The notes below the pieces were generated by a model, which saw only the letters and a list, made by a program, of their open reading frames with translations, was not told the origin of the DNA and did no database searches. This document shows, piece after piece, positions 17,828 through 52,221 of a stretch of DNA of 64,000 nucleotides. This DNA is from Actinopolymorpha cephalotaxi. Lineage in GTDB: Bacteria; Actinomycetota; Actinomycetes; Propionibacteriales; Actinopolymorphaceae. The stretch lies in contig NZ_JACBZA010000001.1 of the NCBI RefSeq assembly GCF_013408535.1, positions 2,068,850 to 2,132,849 on the forward strand, read 5' to 3'. Within the stretch, counting starts at the first letter, position 1; every line of letters starts with the position of its first letter. Position numbers and translations under genes: made by a program.

Positions 17828-18928
17828 GTGAGCGGTAATTCGGGTCTCGTGAGTGGCCTCGGCGATCTGGCGCACCTGTCCGGTGCGGTCACCCGGTCGA
17901 TCAGCGCGGAGAACCCCACCGGTGAGAAGGGGCGCGGCGGCGCGGCGACGGACGGTACGGGTGCCAGGGCGGCCCGCGACCTCGGCCTGGGCTGGAAGGT
18001 CTCGCCCTCGATCCGGATCGGGGCGGGGGAGACGGCGACCCTCGCCGAGATCGACGGCCCCGGCGCGATCCAGCACATCTGGCTCACCACGCACGTGTCG
18101 AACTGGCGTCGGCTGCTGCTGCGCTTCTACTGGGACGACGACACCCGCCCCGCGGTCGAGGTGCCGGTGGGCGACTTCTTCGGCCAGGGCTGGGGGAAGT
18201 TCGCCCAGCTGAGCTCGATGCCGGTGGCGGTGAACCCCAACGGCGGCTTCAACTCGTACTGGACGATGCCGTTCCTGAACAACGCGCGGGTGACGCTTGA
18301 GAACCTCGCCGACGAGGACGTGATCGTCTACTACCAGGTGGACTACACGCTCACCGAGGTCGGCGGACAGGGCGACGATGGCGGCGGTGTGGCGTACTTC
18401 CACTCGCAGTGGCGGCGCAGCAACCCGCTGGCAAGCGAGGACGTGCACACGATCCTGGACGGCGTGACAGGCGCGGGCCACTACGTCGGCACCTACCTCG
18501 CGTGGGGCGTCAACAGCGTCGGCTGGTGGGGCGAGGGCGAGCTGAAGTTCTTCATGGACGGGGACGAGGAGTTCCCGACGATCTGCGGCACCGGGACCGA
18601 GGACTACTTCGGCGGGGCGTGGAATTTCGACGTGCCGGGGCAGGGGTACACCGCGTTCTCGACACCGTTCCTCGGCCTGCACCAGATCATCGCGCCGGAC
18701 GGGCTGTACCAGAGCCAGCAGCGGTTCGGGATGTACCGCTGGCACGTCCTCGACCCGATCCGCTTCGCCTCCGACCTGAAGGTGACGGTGCAGGCGCTCG
18801 GCTGGCGTTCGGGCGGGCGGTACCTCCCGCTGCAGGACGACATCGCCTCGACGGCGTTCTGGTACTCCGGGGAGACCTCGCACACCGCCCCCGCGACCCC
18901 CGACCTGGACACCCTGGAAATCCTCTGA
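17828..18928 (+). CDS. DUF2961/GH172 family glycoside hydrolase
   Basis: 366 residues from GTG 17828. The family signature is the run GTGTEDYFGGAW, with Glu258 in TED, preceded by GEGELKFFMDGDEEFP. DUF2961 was reclassified as GH172, whose characterised members act on alpha-D-fructofuranosyl or D-arabinofuranosyl linkages, including mycobacterial arabinan; some form difructose anhydride. The C-terminal beta-sandwich part (VTVQALGWRSGGRYLPLQDD) is present, so the gene is complete. No signal peptide is found, so the substrate would be intracellular or released by lysis. A hairpin repeat follows the stop. It is not clearly part of the MFS/YceI operon (240-bp gap). Confidence 0.85.
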   Translation: MSGNSGLVSGLGDLAHLSGAVTRSISAENPTGEKGRGGAATDGTGARAARDLGLGWKVSPSIRIGAGETATLAEIDGPGAIQHIWLTTHVSNWRRLLLRFYWDDDTRPAVEVPVGDFFGQGWGKFAQLSSMPVAVNPNGGFNSYWTMPFLNNARVTLENLADEDVIVYYQVDYTLTEVGGQGDDGGGVAYFHSQWRRSNPLASEDVHTILDGVTGAGHYVGTYLAWGVNSVGWWGEGELKFFMDGDEEFPTICGTGTEDYFGGAWNFDVPGQGYTAFSTPFLGLHQIIAPDGLYQSQQRFGMYRWHVLDPIRFASDLKVTVQALGWRSGGRYLPLQDDIASTAFWYSGETSHTAPATPDLDTLEIL

Positions 18929-18953
18929 CCCGACCGAGATCTCGACATCGGCC

Positions 18954-19003
18954 GAGCTTGGGAGACTTACGGGGCCTATGACACCCGTAAGTCTCCCAAG
19001 CTC
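18954..19003. repeat. Long palindrome, copy 1 (terminator-like)
   Basis: The left arm at 18954-18973 and the right arm at 18984-19003 are 20-bp perfect complements with a 10-nt centre. The core is GGGAGACTTACGGG and its complement. A second copy lies at 20034-20080, and the two copies flank the DUF559 gene. This copy contains the stop codon and last eight codons of that gene. It may act as a terminator for both convergent genes or be a dispersed REP-like element. Confidence 0.8.
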
Positions 19004-19968
19004 ACCTGCTCTGAGGGGCCGCACTGCCGGCAGGCCCTGACCCTTCCCCGCCATCCCCGCAAGCGCAGGACGCGGGCAATCTGTTCGGCGACCTCACATG
19101 GCCTGCCGATCGTCTCCGCCCAGCCGTACCGCAAGGTCCAGTAGCCGGTTTCCGCGGCGTGGTTGTCGCGTCGGCGGTCCCGGAACGCGCCGTCACCCAC
19201 GTGGCCGAGCCGCCCGTCGAGTTCGACGACGAGGAGGTACTCGTCGTAACAGACGTCGACCCACTGGCTGATCGAATTCGTTCGCCGATGGGCCTGCCGG
19301 GTGCCGCGCGGAAGTCCGTGTGCGCGTTCGACCGTGCGCAGATAGGCCAGTTCGAGCGGCGACTGCGCACCCTTTTCGACCTCGGCGAGCATCGTCCGCA
19401 GCGGCGCACGCCATGGGGCGTTCGGACGGGCCGCGAGTGCGGCGAGTAGCCGAGCTGGTGTCGTCAGCCGGCGCTGACAGGCGCTGCACACCAGGCCGAC
19501 GACTTCTGGGAACTGTTCAGCCGTCGCCGCCAGGTCGAGCACCGTGTCCTCGACTCGGGTACGTGGGGGTAAGCGGGACGGGTGCCGAATTGCCGTTACC
19601 CGTGTGGAGTAACGGAGACGCAGGCCAGGTTGGGGGCGCACACGACGGTCCCACGAGACAGTGACGTCGACCGGAGCGTCCGCGCCGACCGGTTCATCGC
19701 GCAGGCCCCACAGTTCGGCGGCGGTGCCATGACTCAACAGCGCGTCCGTGCCCGCGTACAGCAGCGCTGCCCACTGGCTGGTCGGTCGCTGCGCCGGCCC
19801 TCCATGGGTGAGGTAGACACGCGGATACAACCGTTGCCATCGACCGGATTTCACCCGGGCGCGCACCTGATCGGGGGTCATGCCGCACGTGCGCACTTGC
19901 TCCAGGAGCACCACCCCGGCCTGCGCCTCGATCGCCTCGAGGAGCGACTGCGGGAGCGGAGCGGGCAT
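18976..19968 (-). CDS. AbiEi-like winged helix / DUF559 endonuclease-fold protein
   Basis: 330 residues. The N-terminal part (LLEQVRTCGMTPDQVRARV, SGRWQRLYPRVYLTHGG) resembles the AbiEi-type winged helix of type IV antitoxins. The middle (LLSHGTAAELWGLRD) is typical of these actinobacterial proteins. The C-terminal part, about 225-320, is DUF559, a Vsr/restriction-endonuclease-like fold: VDVCYDEYLLVVELDG gives D and E-x-D acidic positions, and YWTLRYGW follows. No toxin partner is adjacent. The ATG at 19966-19968 is chosen. The coding sequence ends inside palindrome copy 1, and palindrome copy 2 lies 66 bp upstream of its start. The function is unknown; defence or mobility are possibilities. 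Confidence 0.75.
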   Translation of the reverse strand: MPAPLPQSLLEAIEAQAGVVLLEQVRTCGMTPDQVRARVKSGRWQRLYPRVYLTHGGPAQRPTSQWAALLYAGTDALLSHGTAAELWGLRDEPVGADAPVDVTVSWDRRVRPQPGLRLRYSTRVTAIRHPSRLPPRTRVEDTVLDLAATAEQFPEVVGLVCSACQRRLTTPARLLAALAARPNAPWRAPLRTMLAEVEKGAQSPLELAYLRTVERAHGLPRGTRQAHRRTNSISQWVDVCYDEYLLVVELDGRLGHVGDGAFRDRRRDNHAAETGYWTLRYGWAETIGRPCEVAEQIARVLRLRGWRGRVRACRQCGPSEQVSLGDLRVS

Positions 19969-20033
19969 GGGTGACGGTCCCACACATCGGCCCGCCGACG
20001 CCGACGGCCTGTGGACGGCGATCCGGATACGCG

Positions 20034-20080
20034 GGCTGGGAGACTTACGGGGGCTATAGCACCCGTAAGTCTCCCCAGCC
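20034..20080. repeat. Long palindrome, copy 2
   Basis: GGGAGACTTACGGG (20038-20051) and its complement CCCGTAAGTCTCCC (20062-20075) surround GGCTATAGCA, which contains the palindrome GCTATAGC. The outer GGCT/AGCC arms pair after a one-base bulge. The 14-bp core arms are identical to those of copy 1. It lies between the GntR stop (20100) and the DUF559 start (19968), where it could terminate the GntR transcript. Confidence 0.8.
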
Positions 20081-20099
20081 GTACCCAGCGCGGCGAGCG

Positions 20100-21002
20100 T
20101 CAGGCGCGGCGGCGGGTGCGGGTGGCGTCCTCGTCGGCCCGGGCGCGCGCCGAGGCGGCCAGCGCGGCGGTGAAGTCCTCGGTCTCCTGCAGGTGCTCGT
20201 CCATCAGCGCACCGGCCGAGCGCCGGGCCTTCCGGCGTACGGCACTCATGATCTTGGCGTGGTAGTCGATCGCGCGCTCGGCGAGCTCGGCGTTCTCCTC
20301 GACCGTGCGCCGGCGCACCGAGCGCAGCGCCCCGTCGACGGAGTGGAACAACGTCAGCGCGAACGCGTTCCCGGCCGCCCGCAGCAGCGCGTCGTGGAAG
20401 TTGACGTCGGCGGAGCTGAACGTGTCCAGGTCCTGGGCGGCCCAGGCCTCGCGCATGGTGGCCACCGCGGCCTCCATCCGATCCAGATCCTCGTCGGTAC
20501 GCCGGACCGCGGCGAGTTCGGCGATTCCGCGTTCGACGATGCGGCGCAGCTCGGTCAGCTCGTGCGCGAGCTCGTACCCCGACTCCAGCAGCGCCCGCGC
20601 GTTGAGCACCGTGCTGTCGAACGGCGCCCACGTGTCGGGCTGGTTCACGAACGTGCCGCGCCCCTGCTGGACCCGCAGCACGCCCCGCTGGCGGAGGTCC
20701 TTGATGGCCTCGCGCAGCGTCAGCCGGCTGACGCCGGCACGTTCGGCGAGGACGGGCTCGGGTGGAAGTCTGCTGTCGGGTGGATAGACGCCCGCGACGA
20801 TCTCGTCCAGCAGGCGTTCGGCCAGTTGGTCGGCGAGTCCGGACCGGCTGACACCGGTGAGCGAGCCCCCGGAATCCCGGGCGCCCCCTGAGCTGCGGGC
20901 GTCCCCGGCGCCTCCCGCGGCCCCACCGCTGCCGGGTCCGCGCCCGTCGCGGCCGGTCGTGAGGTGGGCCGGCTTCCTCGGTCGTGGTTTCCGGTCGGTC
21001 AT
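20100..21002 (-). CDS. GntR family regulator, FadR/FCD subfamily
   Basis: About 300 residues. An N-terminal 50-residue Gly/Ser/Arg-rich tail precedes the winged helix (LAERLLDEIVAGVYPPDSRLPPE, AGVSRLTLREAIKDLRQRG, GRGTFV). The all-helical FCD ligand domain carries FHDALLRAAGN and YHAKIMSAV, with histidines expected to bind metal and a carboxylate effector. The start at 21002 is supported by GGGAGG upstream; an in-frame extension exists. It is divergent from the uxaA/larA pair and very likely controls it through the ACATCAGATGA site at 21220-21230. Sugar acids are the expected effectors (inference). Confidence 0.88.
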   Translation of the reverse strand: MTDRKPRPRKPAHLTTGRDGRGPGSGGAAGGAGDARSSGGARDSGGSLTGVSRSGLADQLAERLLDEIVAGVYPPDSRLPPEPVLAERAGVSRLTLREAIKDLRQRGVLRVQQGRGTFVNQPDTWAPFDSTVLNARALLESGYELAHELTELRRIVERGIAELAAVRRTDEDLDRMEAAVATMREAWAAQDLDTFSSADVNFHDALLRAAGNAFALTLFHSVDGALRSVRRRTVEENAELAERAIDYHAKIMSAVRRKARRSAGALMDEHLQETEDFTAALAASARARADEDATRTRRRA

Positions 21003-21200
21003 GTCCGCCGTGCCTCCCAGGGTGACCGCCGAGGTGACCACCATCGGACAGGCTGGTGGGTCGACTGCGGCCCAACCATAAGGCACCCGCCCGGCGGCAC
21101 GTCCCGAACACACCCCGGCCCCGCCCCGAACCTGCCGCCAACCTGCCCCGAACCTGCTCAGAACACGCCCTACGGCGGTCCGCGGCCGCTTCGGAGCGGG

Positions 21201-21230
21201 TACGATTTCCGGCATTGAAACATCAGATGA
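21201..21230 (+). promoter_or_regulatory. -10 box and FCD-GntR type operator upstream of uxaA
   Basis: TACGAT (21201-21206) is a candidate -10. CATC-A-GATG (21221-21229) is a 9-bp palindrome, extended to ACATCAGATGA, resembling sites of actinobacterial FCD-type GntR regulators. It covers ATG 21227, which argues for translation from GTG 21248. No convincing -35 is seen. Confidence 0.45.
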
Positions 21231-21247
21231 CTTGGAAGGTGACACAA

Positions 21248-22822
21248 GTGACGCCAGTGCCGCCAGTGACGCCCGCCACCGACCAGCCCACGCTCGCCGA
21301 CCTGACGCTGCGGCTGCACGAGACCGACAACGTCGTGATCGCGATGGGCGACCTCGCACCCGGCGGCTACGCGCTGCCCGCCGGCGGGTCCCTGCAGGTC
21401 ACCGACGCCGTTCCGCGCGGCCACAAGCTCGCCGTGGCGCCGGTCGCACCGGGTGAGCCGGTCCGCAAGTACGGCCAGGTCATCGGGTTCGCCAGCGAGC
21501 CGATCGTGCCCGGGCGGCACGTGCACACGCACAACACGGCGTTCCAGATGTTCGAGCGGGAGTACGACTTCGGCGTCGACGTCCGGCCCACGGTGTACGT
21601 ACCCGAGAGCGCCCGGGCCACCTTCCAGGGCATCGTCCGCCCCGACGGGCGGGTGGCGACCCGCAACTACATCGGCATCCTCACCACGGTCAACTGCTCG
21701 GCCACCGCGGCCAAGCTGATCGCCGAGCGGTTCAAGTACGACGTCCTCGACGAGTTCCCGAACGTCGACGGCGTGGTCTCCCTCACCCACAGCACCGGCT
21801 GCGGCATGGCCGGTCCGGGCAGCGAGGGCTTCGAGGTGCTCCGGCGTACTCTCACCGGCTACGCCAACCACCCGAACTTCGCCGGCTTCCTCGTCCTCGG
21901 CCTCGGCTGCGAGGTCAACCAGGTCGCCGGCCTGGTCGAGCACTGGAACATCCCCGAGCACAAGATCACCGTGCCGATGACAATCCAGGAGCTCGGCGGC
22001 ACCCGCAAGACGGTGGCCGAGGGGATCGCCCGGATCAAGGACATGCTGCCCGAGGTCGACGCCGTGAGCCGCGAGACCGTGCCCGCCAGCGAGCTGATCC
22101 TGGCGATGGAGTGCGGCGGCTCCGACGGCTACTCCGGCATCACCGCCAACCCCGCGCTCGGCGCGGCCGCCGACCTGCTGGTGGCCCACGGCGGCACCGC
22201 GGTCTTCGGGGAGACGCCGGAGATCTACGGCGCGGAACACCTGCTGGCACGGCGCGCCGTCAGCCGCGAGGTGGGGGAGAAGCTGATCCGCCGGATCCAC
22301 TGGTGGGAGGACTACACCGCCAAGCACTCCGGTTCGATGGACAACAACCCCTCGCCGGGCAACAAGGCGGGTGGCCTCACCACGATCCTGGAGAAGTCCC
22401 TCGGCGCCGCGGCCAAGGGCGGCACGACCAACCTGGCCGACGTCGTGGAGTTCGCCGAGCAGATCACCGCGAAGGGCCTGGTCTTCATGGACACGCCCGG
22501 CTACGACCCGGTGAACGCGACCGGCATGGTGGCCGGCGGCTCGCAGGTGCTGTGCTTCACCACCGGCCGTGGGTCGGCGTTCGGGTGCAAGCCCACGCCG
22601 TCGATGAAGCTGGCCACCAACACCGACGTTTACCAGCGGATGACCGACGACATGGACGTCAACTGCGGTGTCGTCGCCGACGGGGACGCGTCCGTGGCGG
22701 AGGTCGGCCGGCAGATCTTCGACCGGGTGCTGGCCACCGCGTCGGGTGAGAAGACCAAGAGCGAGGAGCTCGGCTACGGCGACGAGGAGTTCGTGCCGTG
22801 GCAGCTCGGCGCGGTGATGTGA
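21248..22822 (+). CDS. uxaA: UxaA family hydrolyase (altronate/galactarate dehydratase type)
   Basis: About 524 residues. The N-terminal SAF-type domain runs from LHETDNVVIAMGDLAPGG to HTHNTAFQ. The large catalytic domain contains GRVATRNYIGILTTVNCSAT, LTHSTGCGM, LGCEVNQ, MECGGSDGYSGITANPA and the C-terminal FTTGRGSAFGC. These are the hallmarks of UxaA/GarD enzymes, which dehydrate altronate or galactarate to 2-keto-3-deoxy sugar acids with a divalent metal. GTG 21248 with GGAAGG eight bases upstream is preferred over ATG 21227, which lies within the operator. The exact sugar acid cannot be read from sequence. It is followed by a LarA homologue, suggesting that an epimerised hydroxyacid is the substrate. 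Confidence 0.88.
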   Translation: MTPVPPVTPATDQPTLADLTLRLHETDNVVIAMGDLAPGGYALPAGGSLQVTDAVPRGHKLAVAPVAPGEPVRKYGQVIGFASEPIVPGRHVHTHNTAFQMFEREYDFGVDVRPTVYVPESARATFQGIVRPDGRVATRNYIGILTTVNCSATAAKLIAERFKYDVLDEFPNVDGVVSLTHSTGCGMAGPGSEGFEVLRRTLTGYANHPNFAGFLVLGLGCEVNQVAGLVEHWNIPEHKITVPMTIQELGGTRKTVAEGIARIKDMLPEVDAVSRETVPASELILAMECGGSDGYSGITANPALGAAADLLVAHGGTAVFGETPEIYGAEHLLARRAVSREVGEKLIRRIHWWEDYTAKHSGSMDNNPSPGNKAGGLTTILEKSLGAAAKGGTTNLADVVEFAEQITAKGLVFMDTPGYDPVNATGMVAGGSQVLCFTTGRGSAFGCKPTPSMKLATNTDVYQRMTDDMDVNCGVVADGDASVAEVGRQIFDRVLATASGEKTKSEELGYGDEEFVPWQLGAVM

Positions 22823-51264: not shown

Positions 51265-51696
51265 GCCGGCGTGGGCCGGTAGGTCCGCAGTCCGTTCGGT
51301 GAGTGGTGGGCCTCAGGTCGACTCCGTTCCCCTGATCGTCCCCTGATCGGCGGGGTCGGCTCGAGCCCGACGCCGGGCCGTCCGTTCCGACCCGCCCCCG
51401 TTCCGATACACGTTCCGATGGCCGGTCGCGTGATCCACGCGACCGGCCATCGGCATGTGAGCGCCCTGTTCGACATCACCTCGGGTTCAGGTGACCTCGG
51501 TTCCTCGTGACTCGGCGTCGCGATCGAGTCTTTGCGTCCGGCCCCGGCCAGGTCGGTGCCCGCGTCCTTGTGCGCCTGCTTCTCACCCGCTCTACTGAGC
51601 AGGTCAGGACATCCCATGTCCCACGTCCGGCGTCGTGGCACCGCCGTGCCGGTCCCACGGCACCCGGGTTCGGCCGACGACGATCGAGGAGCCGCC
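51265..51696. other. Gap between rbpA and the LamG remnant
   Basis: 432 bases without a convincing gene. The only clear structure is the strong hairpin at 51415-51453. Downstream of it there is room for a promoter for the ATG at 51697, but I see no convincing -35/-10 pair. GAGGAG at 51685-51690 is the ribosome binding site of that start. Confidence 0.5.
51415..51453. terminator. Strong hairpin terminator after rbpA
   Basis: CCGATGGCCGGTCGCG (51415-51430) and its exact complement CGCGACCGGCCATCGG (51438-51453) form a 16-bp perfect stem with a 7-nt loop, about 150 nt after the rbpA stop. There is no U-tract, as usual in this GC range. Confidence 0.75.
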
Positions 51697-52144
51697 ATGG
51701 CCACCTCACCAGCCCACGAACGCCGCGGGGCGTTCCCCACCCGCGGCAGGAGCAGGCGACGTGCCGTCCTCGCCGCCAGCCTGACCGCCGCCAGTCTCGG
51801 CCTGGCCGCGACGAGCCCGGCTCGGGCGGCCCCACCGGCACCGGCGGATGCGGTGAGTGCAGCGGGTCGGGCGGCGTTTCCTGATGTGGGTGGACGGTGT
51901 CCAGGTCGCGGCCGCCACCTCGCCGGCGGGGTCGGTCACCGAGGGAAAGGAGTTCGGCGTCCAGGGCATCCACATCGGTGAGCGGGTGGACGGGACCAGC
52001 CGGTTCCGAGGCTCGCTGGACGAGGTGCGGGTCTATCGCCGCGCGTTGTCGCCTTCGGAGATCACCCGGCTGTACGAGACGAACCTCTCGGGCCGCCGCG
52101 GCCTGGCGCTGTGGCTGCCGTTCGAGCGCGTCGACCCCAACTGA
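51697..52144 (+). pseudogene. Broken secreted LamG-domain protein (signal peptide joined out of frame to a C-terminal fragment)
   Basis: ATG 51697 with GAGGAG starts a Tat-like signal peptide (GRSRRRAVLAASLTAASLG, cleavage after ARA) and a few mature residues. Around 51840-51880 the frame loses coding sense. In the next frame RFLMWVDGVQVAAATSPAG, FGVQGIHIGERVDG and LDEVRVYRRALSPSEITRLYE form the last 80 residues of a LamG/concanavalin-like domain, ending at TGA 52142-52144. The catalytic middle of what was probably a secreted carbohydrate-active enzyme is missing. An internal deletion or an assembly gap are the explanations. Confidence 0.75.
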
Positions 52145-52171
52145 CGCTGCCGACAGGCGAGGAAGTTCGGT

Positions 52172-52221
52172 GAGGCGGGAAGACCTGCGGGTGCTCTGGG
52201 CCCCGTGGGTCTTCCCGCCTC
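52172..52221. terminator. Bidirectional hairpin before the GHL10 gene end
   Basis: GAGGCGGGAAGACC (52172-52185) and GGTCTTCCCGCCTC (52208-52221) are perfect 14-bp complements with a 22-nt loop, lying between the LamG remnant and the convergent gene ending at 52260. Confidence 0.65.

Follow-up and report, generated by a model that had tools for sequence, protein, structure and literature searches.

A palindrome-bracketed gene for a predicted AbiEi-like/Vsr-like nuclease in Actinopolymorpha and its proposed REPtron-like relatives across Propionibacteriales

The window analyzed here, a 64,000-nucleotide stretch of the Actinopolymorpha cephalotaxi genome, contains a self-contained palindrome-nuclease-palindrome arrangement of about 1.1 kb (Table 1). 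The same anatomy recurs across the order Propionibacteriales, alleles with a solo palindrome and an empty site occur at the window locus, and one repeat family is found in company with its gene. We consider it probable that this is a unit organized like a REPtron but built around an unrelated enzyme, a nuclease that would act on its own palindromes.

Table 1. Positions of the palindromes, the predicted nuclease gene with its two halves, and the neighboring genes in the window
Feature	Position	Strand	Description
Palindrome 1	18954..19003	.	20-bp arms, 100% complementary, 10-nt loop; holds the gene's 3′ end
Palindrome 2	20032..20081	.	Upstream of the DUF559 gene; same 14-bp arms as palindrome 1
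AbiEi-like/DUF559 (Vsr-like) predicted nuclease gene	18976..19968	-	330 aa; ORF and genus search
N-terminal half, AbiEi antitoxin fold (predicted)	19375..19968	-	Residues 1-198; VIA-align and PADLOC
C-terminal Vsr/I-Bth0305I-type endonuclease fold (predicted)	19051..19365	-	Residues 202-306; VIA-align
Third, solo palindrome of the same family	52172..52221	.	Without an adjoining DUF559 gene; covariance-model match
Left neighbor, DUF2961 protein	17828..18928	+	Locus anchor outside the unit; family match and synteny
Right neighbor, GntR/FCD regulator	20100..21359	-	Locus anchor outside the unit; longest ORF, start probably internal

The initial annotation had described two near-identical long palindromes with shared 14-bp arms, and between them a DUF559 gene whose last eight codons and stop lie inside copy 1. 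Both parts of this description were confirmed, with copy 2 extending over the full range given in Table 1 and palindrome 1 supplying the final 27 nt of the gene. The 43-bp cores of the two palindromes are 91% identical and lie 1078 bp apart, and within the 64-kb window the exact 14-bp arm is confined to these two copies. Folded as DNA, palindromes 1 and 2 reach -24.2 and -23.1 kcal/mol (z -11.4 and -8.7), a stability equaled by none of 200 shuffles. A search against Rfam gave three matches, all below threshold and set aside (the best, to RT-13, has E 0.018 and 26.3 bits, where the gathering score is 69.1).

The encoded protein matches DUF559 in Pfam (PF04480, 22.0 bits, above the cut-off of 20.6) and, beneath the cut-off of 25, AbiEi_4 (22.9 bits); PADLOC models for AbiEi also match it (best 5.7e-17), while NCBIfam gave no match. 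PF04480 matches 15 of the 48 aligned proteins at E<=0.01. An AlphaFold2 model made with 48 sequences has a mean pLDDT of 91, and structural alignment with VIA-align pairs its residues 1-198 with the Streptococcus agalactiae AbiEi antitoxin (6y8q_A; Z 12.4, 185 residues, rmsd 4.4). Residues 202-306 align with the putative endonuclease 3hrl (Z 12.3, 91 residues), the homing endonuclease I-Bth0305I (3r3p_A; Z 11.8, rmsd 2.8, 95 residues) and Vsr (1cw0_A; Z 10.0, 98 residues). Seven residues (E206, D238, E249, D251, D264, R267 and D268) are invariant across the 48 aligned proteins. By its predicted folds the protein joins an AbiEi-type DNA-binding half to a nuclease half of Vsr/homing-endonuclease type. 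AbiEi and Rv2827c are described as binding inverted repeats in their own promoters (PMC7319586), and because of this property and the predicted folds it is plausible that the protein fuses a palindrome-binding half to a half that nicks or cuts.

The palindromes belong to a dispersed family. In the 6.86-Mb genome, the exact arm-to-arm pattern occurs at 4 places (reversed control, 0), and a covariance model, R1, made from 12 genome copies finds at least 23 distinct places at E<=1e-3, the 12 training copies included, in a search that scored 150 of 1125 first-look candidates. The copy count that the initial annotation had proposed to make therefore comes to tens of palindromes in this genome, not hundreds, and they are divided between 21 solo places and 1 unit. 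Among the 12 aligned copies, 8 of the 20 stem pairs are changed on both sides, with a covariation score above that of all 500 shuffles, and the loops often carry CTAT or ATAG. As for the unpaired GTAG (or CGTC) tag at one end of REP palindromes, inspection by eye showed YAG about 3 bases outside the stem in many copies of one repeat family. For 15 of the 21 solo places, gene calls from a crude ORF caller put the palindrome between convergent genes in 9 cases, between tandem genes in 4, between divergent genes in 1 and within an ORF in 1.

Within the genus, with 150 candidates scored per genome and matches on both strands counted, R1 gives 44 matches in G000, 102 in G001, 34 in G003 (A. rutila), 32 in G004 and 32 in G005, and none among the 150 candidates in G002. 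A. rutila has about 17 palindromes yet no close DUF559 gene; these may be relics that have outlived their gene, or another enzyme may act on them. The third palindrome of the window differs from its A. rutila orthologue at 5 stem pairs, 3 of them changed on both sides, and all 20 pairs can still form when G-T is counted. Its orthologues are intact in A. rutila, apparently halved in G004 and lost in G005, and none of the three reveals a clean insertion. Beside this palindrome, at 51360-52170 of the window, lies a shortened version of a gene that in A. rutila is much longer and by eye looks sialidase-like; G005 and G004 retain little of it. A 24-base pattern, searched in the genome_contigs collection, which may omit records of the window's own genome, was found in three records, one from A. 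rutila and two from MAGs (Frankiaceae and Cytophagaceae). The palindromes of these two MAGs, which lie outside the order, share the 12-bp arm core (L086 1395-1444 and L087 6372-6420) and may reflect transfer, contamination or chance.

Comparison of the window locus among Actinopolymorpha genomes reveals several allelic states between the DUF2961 and GntR genes. The palindrome-gene-palindrome arrangement is present in the window genome and in G005; it is found in G001 as well, where the protein is 59% identical and the repeats have different sequences. In G004 the gene faces the opposite way and is broken across two frames; one of its flanks carries a whole palindrome, the other only half of one. 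The corresponding gap in A. rutila measures 90 bp and holds a single palindrome and no gene, and in G002 only 54 bp separate the alignable anchors, palindrome and gene both being absent. A search for empty sites was among the checks proposed in the initial annotation, and the A. rutila allele, which is without exactly the gene and one palindrome, is such a site. It can be explained by recombination between the two palindromes or as the state before insertion, and a single old insertion followed by losses would also fit the alleles of this locus. The half palindromes of G004 run from the loop outward at L258 (G004 4921000-4929500) and apparently also at L278, the orthologue of the palindrome at 52172. 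Breakpoints near palindrome centers would fit cleavage at the center, with the L278 case being ambiguous.

Matching repeats around related genes are found across the order. A homologue search gave matches in 107 of 391 genomes, and we compared the flanks at 94 loci, of which 9 came from the family search and 85 were hand-picked, not randomly drawn, from the upper part of the order-wide list (5 candidates scored per genome); five loci cut by contig ends (L105, L120, L137, L155 and L161) were dropped, leaving 89. Left and right flanks match with a score of at least 30 at 46 of the 89 loci (39 of 80 outside the family); among control intervals, this score is reached by 4 of the 781 placed on pseudo-genes and by 4 of the 182 that were shifted. 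This represents an excess of about 100-fold and 24-fold, respectively, so that matching flanks do cluster at DUF559 genes, as the initial annotation had envisaged. The other 43 loci are without a matching pair at this score. Spacing between the centers of a pair has a median of 1082 bp. The 45 matching pairs scored for symmetry comprise 31 with two palindromic copies, 4 with a single one and 10 in which neither copy is clearly palindromic; shuffled sequence reaches the palindrome-symmetry score in 8 of 550 cases. No single repeat polarity holds, since 20 of the 46 pairs are direct, 8 are inverted and 18 are too symmetric to decide. The central 14 nt contain GAC or GTC, a motif chosen post hoc, at 27 of 44 loci, where shuffled sequence gives a mean of 18.3 and 14 of 2000 shuffles reach the observed count.

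Eight of the nine loci from the genus and family have a pair if G004, with its half palindrome on one side, is counted, and seven reach a score of 30. Further Actinopolymorpha homologues with pairs of their own are G001:C87, G001:C39, G001:C54 and a broken copy in G001:C1, and the repeats of the four G001 genes differ from one another. In G006, which represents another genus of the family, one of two genes has a pair and the other (L094) has none. The broken DUF559 unit (L082, G001:C1) occupies 1315-2061, shortened to 695 bp between repeats that are 94% identical to each other, and is a decayed unit that has kept its ends alike. The dropped locus L120, when compared with itself, has a 47-bp, 89% pair 1062 bp apart. 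Of three remote homologues, L084 and L078 are without matching flanks. The third, L083 (G001:C44, 28% identity), has flanks that match with a score of 41 direct and 38 inverted, and the matching-flank rule may therefore reach beyond this DUF559 subfamily.

How the repeats vary with the proteins was compared at 55 loci. These were chosen for having a matching pair, a selection that raises the mean left-to-right score within a locus, which is 37.7. Proteins that are at least 80% identical have repeats that are alike (mean score 35.4, 10 pairs), and the bin means for proteins 40-80% identical are 9.0-14.4; over all 55 loci, repeat likeness correlates with protein identity (Spearman 0.32, Mantel p 0.001). 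The 10 close pairs are for the most part orthologous loci whose flanks are homologous too, and hence their repeat likeness may be mere recency. L111 and L121 encode proteins that are 78% identical and are homologous throughout the stretch. Their repeats differ (score 14), and each locus has its own matching pair (scores 27 and 30), which argues that the ends of one unit keep matching each other as separate units drift apart. Across the sequences compared, repeats match within a pair and differ between genes.

Units at different loci can be compared in genus g5, which comprises 38 genomes; for these tests the L136 unit (G017) was chosen after its repeats were known. The flanks of this unit are in order in all 37 congeners, and among the matches listed the gene is present there only in G017. 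Its nearest relative is the gene of the L117 unit in G014, which lies at another locus and encodes an 83.7%-identical protein. Homology between the two covers 1328-2453 of L117, with none beyond, and the L117 repeats are at 1309-1375 and 2393-2458. L103 and L107 share 1400-2491 of L103 and, in addition, one stray 182-bp, 62% match, and the L103 repeats are at 1353-1394 and 2445-2486; when either L103 or L102 is compared with L107, the common stretch begins just inside the left repeat and ends at the end of the right repeat. The boundaries of the unit lie at the repeats in these non-orthologous copies.

In this genus one repeat family co-occurs with its gene. A 17-bp repeat core, searched with at most one mismatch, has 11 sites in G017, 14 in G014 (in either genome a pair of these flanks the unit), 1 in G107 and none in the remaining 35 genomes; the reversed control gave none. 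Twelve of 13 places, out of 26 in all, are outside ORFs called by a crude caller. Among the regions compared, one solo site is common to G017 and G014. A DUF559 gene was suspected between two palindromes 1.05 kb apart in G017 and was not found there. One solo site was aligned by collinearity and revealed no clean single-palindrome insertion, and base-exact junctions were not obtained for the L136 unit site, because both sites are hypervariable between species. No target-site duplication was found. In G014 the site orthologous to that of the L136 unit (L183) holds a different strong palindrome (center score 20; best of 20 shuffles 11), and the orthologous sites L185, L186 and L188 have no comparably clear palindrome. 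Searches with tblastn for the protein family gave no match in plasmids at E<=1e-5 and one distant match (34%) in phages, and of the 36 IMG/VR stretches that fit a search pattern, none is a relative.

From these observations we infer binding, cutting, transposition and a route of dispersal. The N-terminal half would recognize the unit's own palindrome, and the nuclease would cut or nick it, possibly when extruded or single-stranded as a hairpin. Palindromes, and now and then an entire unit, would then reach further intergenic sites as copies made by repair or strand transfer, and recombination between the flanking palindromes could delete the gene to leave a solo palindrome. Because the same protein would have to recognize every palindrome, the two copies flanking a gene would be expected to stay alike even as units diverge fast.

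Other explanations account for parts of these data. If the protein is an AbiEi-type autorepressor, then the upstream palindrome could be its operator and the dispersed palindromes its regulon, as might be anticipated from the predicted AbiEi fold of the N-terminal half, from the promoter-binding proteins cited above and from the position of the upstream repeat, whose center is a median of 127 bp upstream of where the matched gene stretch begins. However, the second copy is 3′ of the gene (its center lies a median of 39 bp past the matched stretch), solo copies favor convergent over divergent genes by 9 to 1, and both the nuclease domain and the unit boundaries at the repeats are left unexplained. 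We therefore regard this model as unlikely, although autoregulation may coexist with a nuclease acting on its own palindromes. It is also improbable that the palindromes stem from an unrelated repeat system and that DUF559 genes land between them by recombination or as cargo. The persistence of palindromes in A. rutila and the numerical excess of solo copies over units in the window genome would be natural under such an arrangement, but locus-specific pairs at half of the loci, the divergence of repeats along with proteins and the co-occurrence of gene and repeat would not be expected. Moreover, 8 of 10 genomes gave no match to the Y1 transposases that are the known partners of REPs.

The initial annotation had considered a dispersed terminator repeat to be the simpler reading, and indeed each palindrome that flanks the DUF559 gene comes after the 3′ end of a neighboring gene, DUF2961 or GntR, while most solo copies with called neighbors are between convergent genes. 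Yet the palindromes match within loci and not between them, the rate of matching pairs far exceeds that of the pseudo-gene intervals, a terminator scan found no intrinsic terminator with a T-tract in 18500-20600, and one repeat core is missing from most genomes of its genus. Bidirectional terminators that happen to surround the gene explain neither the locus-specific pairs nor the co-occurrence of repeat and gene, and are very improbable. A defense or toxin-antitoxin module, in which the palindromes around an AbiE-like or restriction-like gene serve as control or self-marking sites, also seems a poor prospect. The PADLOC matches speak for it, but no AbiEii-type toxin is encoded by the four neighbors scanned at the window locus (DUF2961, GntR/FCD, YceI and altronate-dehydratase-type), the family's record in plasmids and phages is limited to a single phage match, and the dispersed palindromes would have no explanation.

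A broader proposal, to which we would give nearly even chances, is that these are selfish units, widespread in actinobacteria, whose AbiEi-Vsr nuclease cuts the fast-diverging palindrome of its own unit and so spreads it. This would be a REP-like system with an origin independent of the HUH transposases, and its enzyme would be a candidate partner for REP families that have no known transposase. If so, a second, unrelated nuclease family with its own repeats on either side, across an order, would point to more than one origin of such systems. Genes now annotated only as 'unknown function' or 'AbiEi antitoxin' would gain a role, and many natural nuclease-palindrome pairs of differing specificity would become available.

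The closest likeness among known systems is to REPtrons, in which REP palindromes flank a RAYT gene whose product is a tyrosine (Y1) enzyme, and to TIRtrons; as in the account of PMC3733652, a small gene for a DNA-processing enzyme is bracketed by palindromes, solo palindromes are dispersed, and genes are specific to their repeats. The palindromes on either side of the DUF559 gene likewise have further copies scattered over the genome. Unlike RAYTs, which have a catalytic tyrosine and a HUH motif, the window protein is a predicted Vsr-like nuclease with an AbiEi-like half, and it has no match to Pfam Y1_Tnp, the enzyme family that marks both REPtrons and IS200/IS605, whose TnpA goes with subterminal hairpins. 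Y1_Tnp (PF01797) matches are absent from 8 of 10 genomes, the window's included (G000, G003, G004, G005, G014 and G017 are among the eight); G001 has 9 and G002, in which no palindromes were found, has 7. The initial annotation had suggested a REP/RAYT-like unit, and the part that is supported is that gene and palindromes probably form one unit, as indicated by the tens of copies, the empty site in A. rutila and the flank enrichment, while the REP/RAYT identity is not, no Y1 transposase having been found in the window genome. Among REPs themselves, the GTAG class is attributed to RAYT transposases, and the CGTC class, a second large one mainly in alpha-proteobacteria, is reported to be without a dedicated transposase (PMC3733652); the latter, for which those authors describe finding none, also consists of small dispersed palindromes.

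Two further systems share one half of the protein each. The predicted C-terminal domain has the catalytic fold of I-Bth0305I and thus resembles the EDxHD/Vsr-fold homing endonucleases. A homing endonuclease gene splits its own target site, whereas here two intact palindromes flank the gene, which is not in an intron or intein and encodes an AbiEi-like N-terminal half. That half, by its predicted fold, resembles the antitoxins of AbiE (type IV) systems, from which the unit differs by its extra nuclease domain and by repeats that are both on either side of the gene and dispersed. The unit lacks, or may lack, a defining feature of each kind of known system compared here. No published description of the association of this enzyme with its repeats was found in the open-access literature searched; the unit probably works like a REPtron but is not one.
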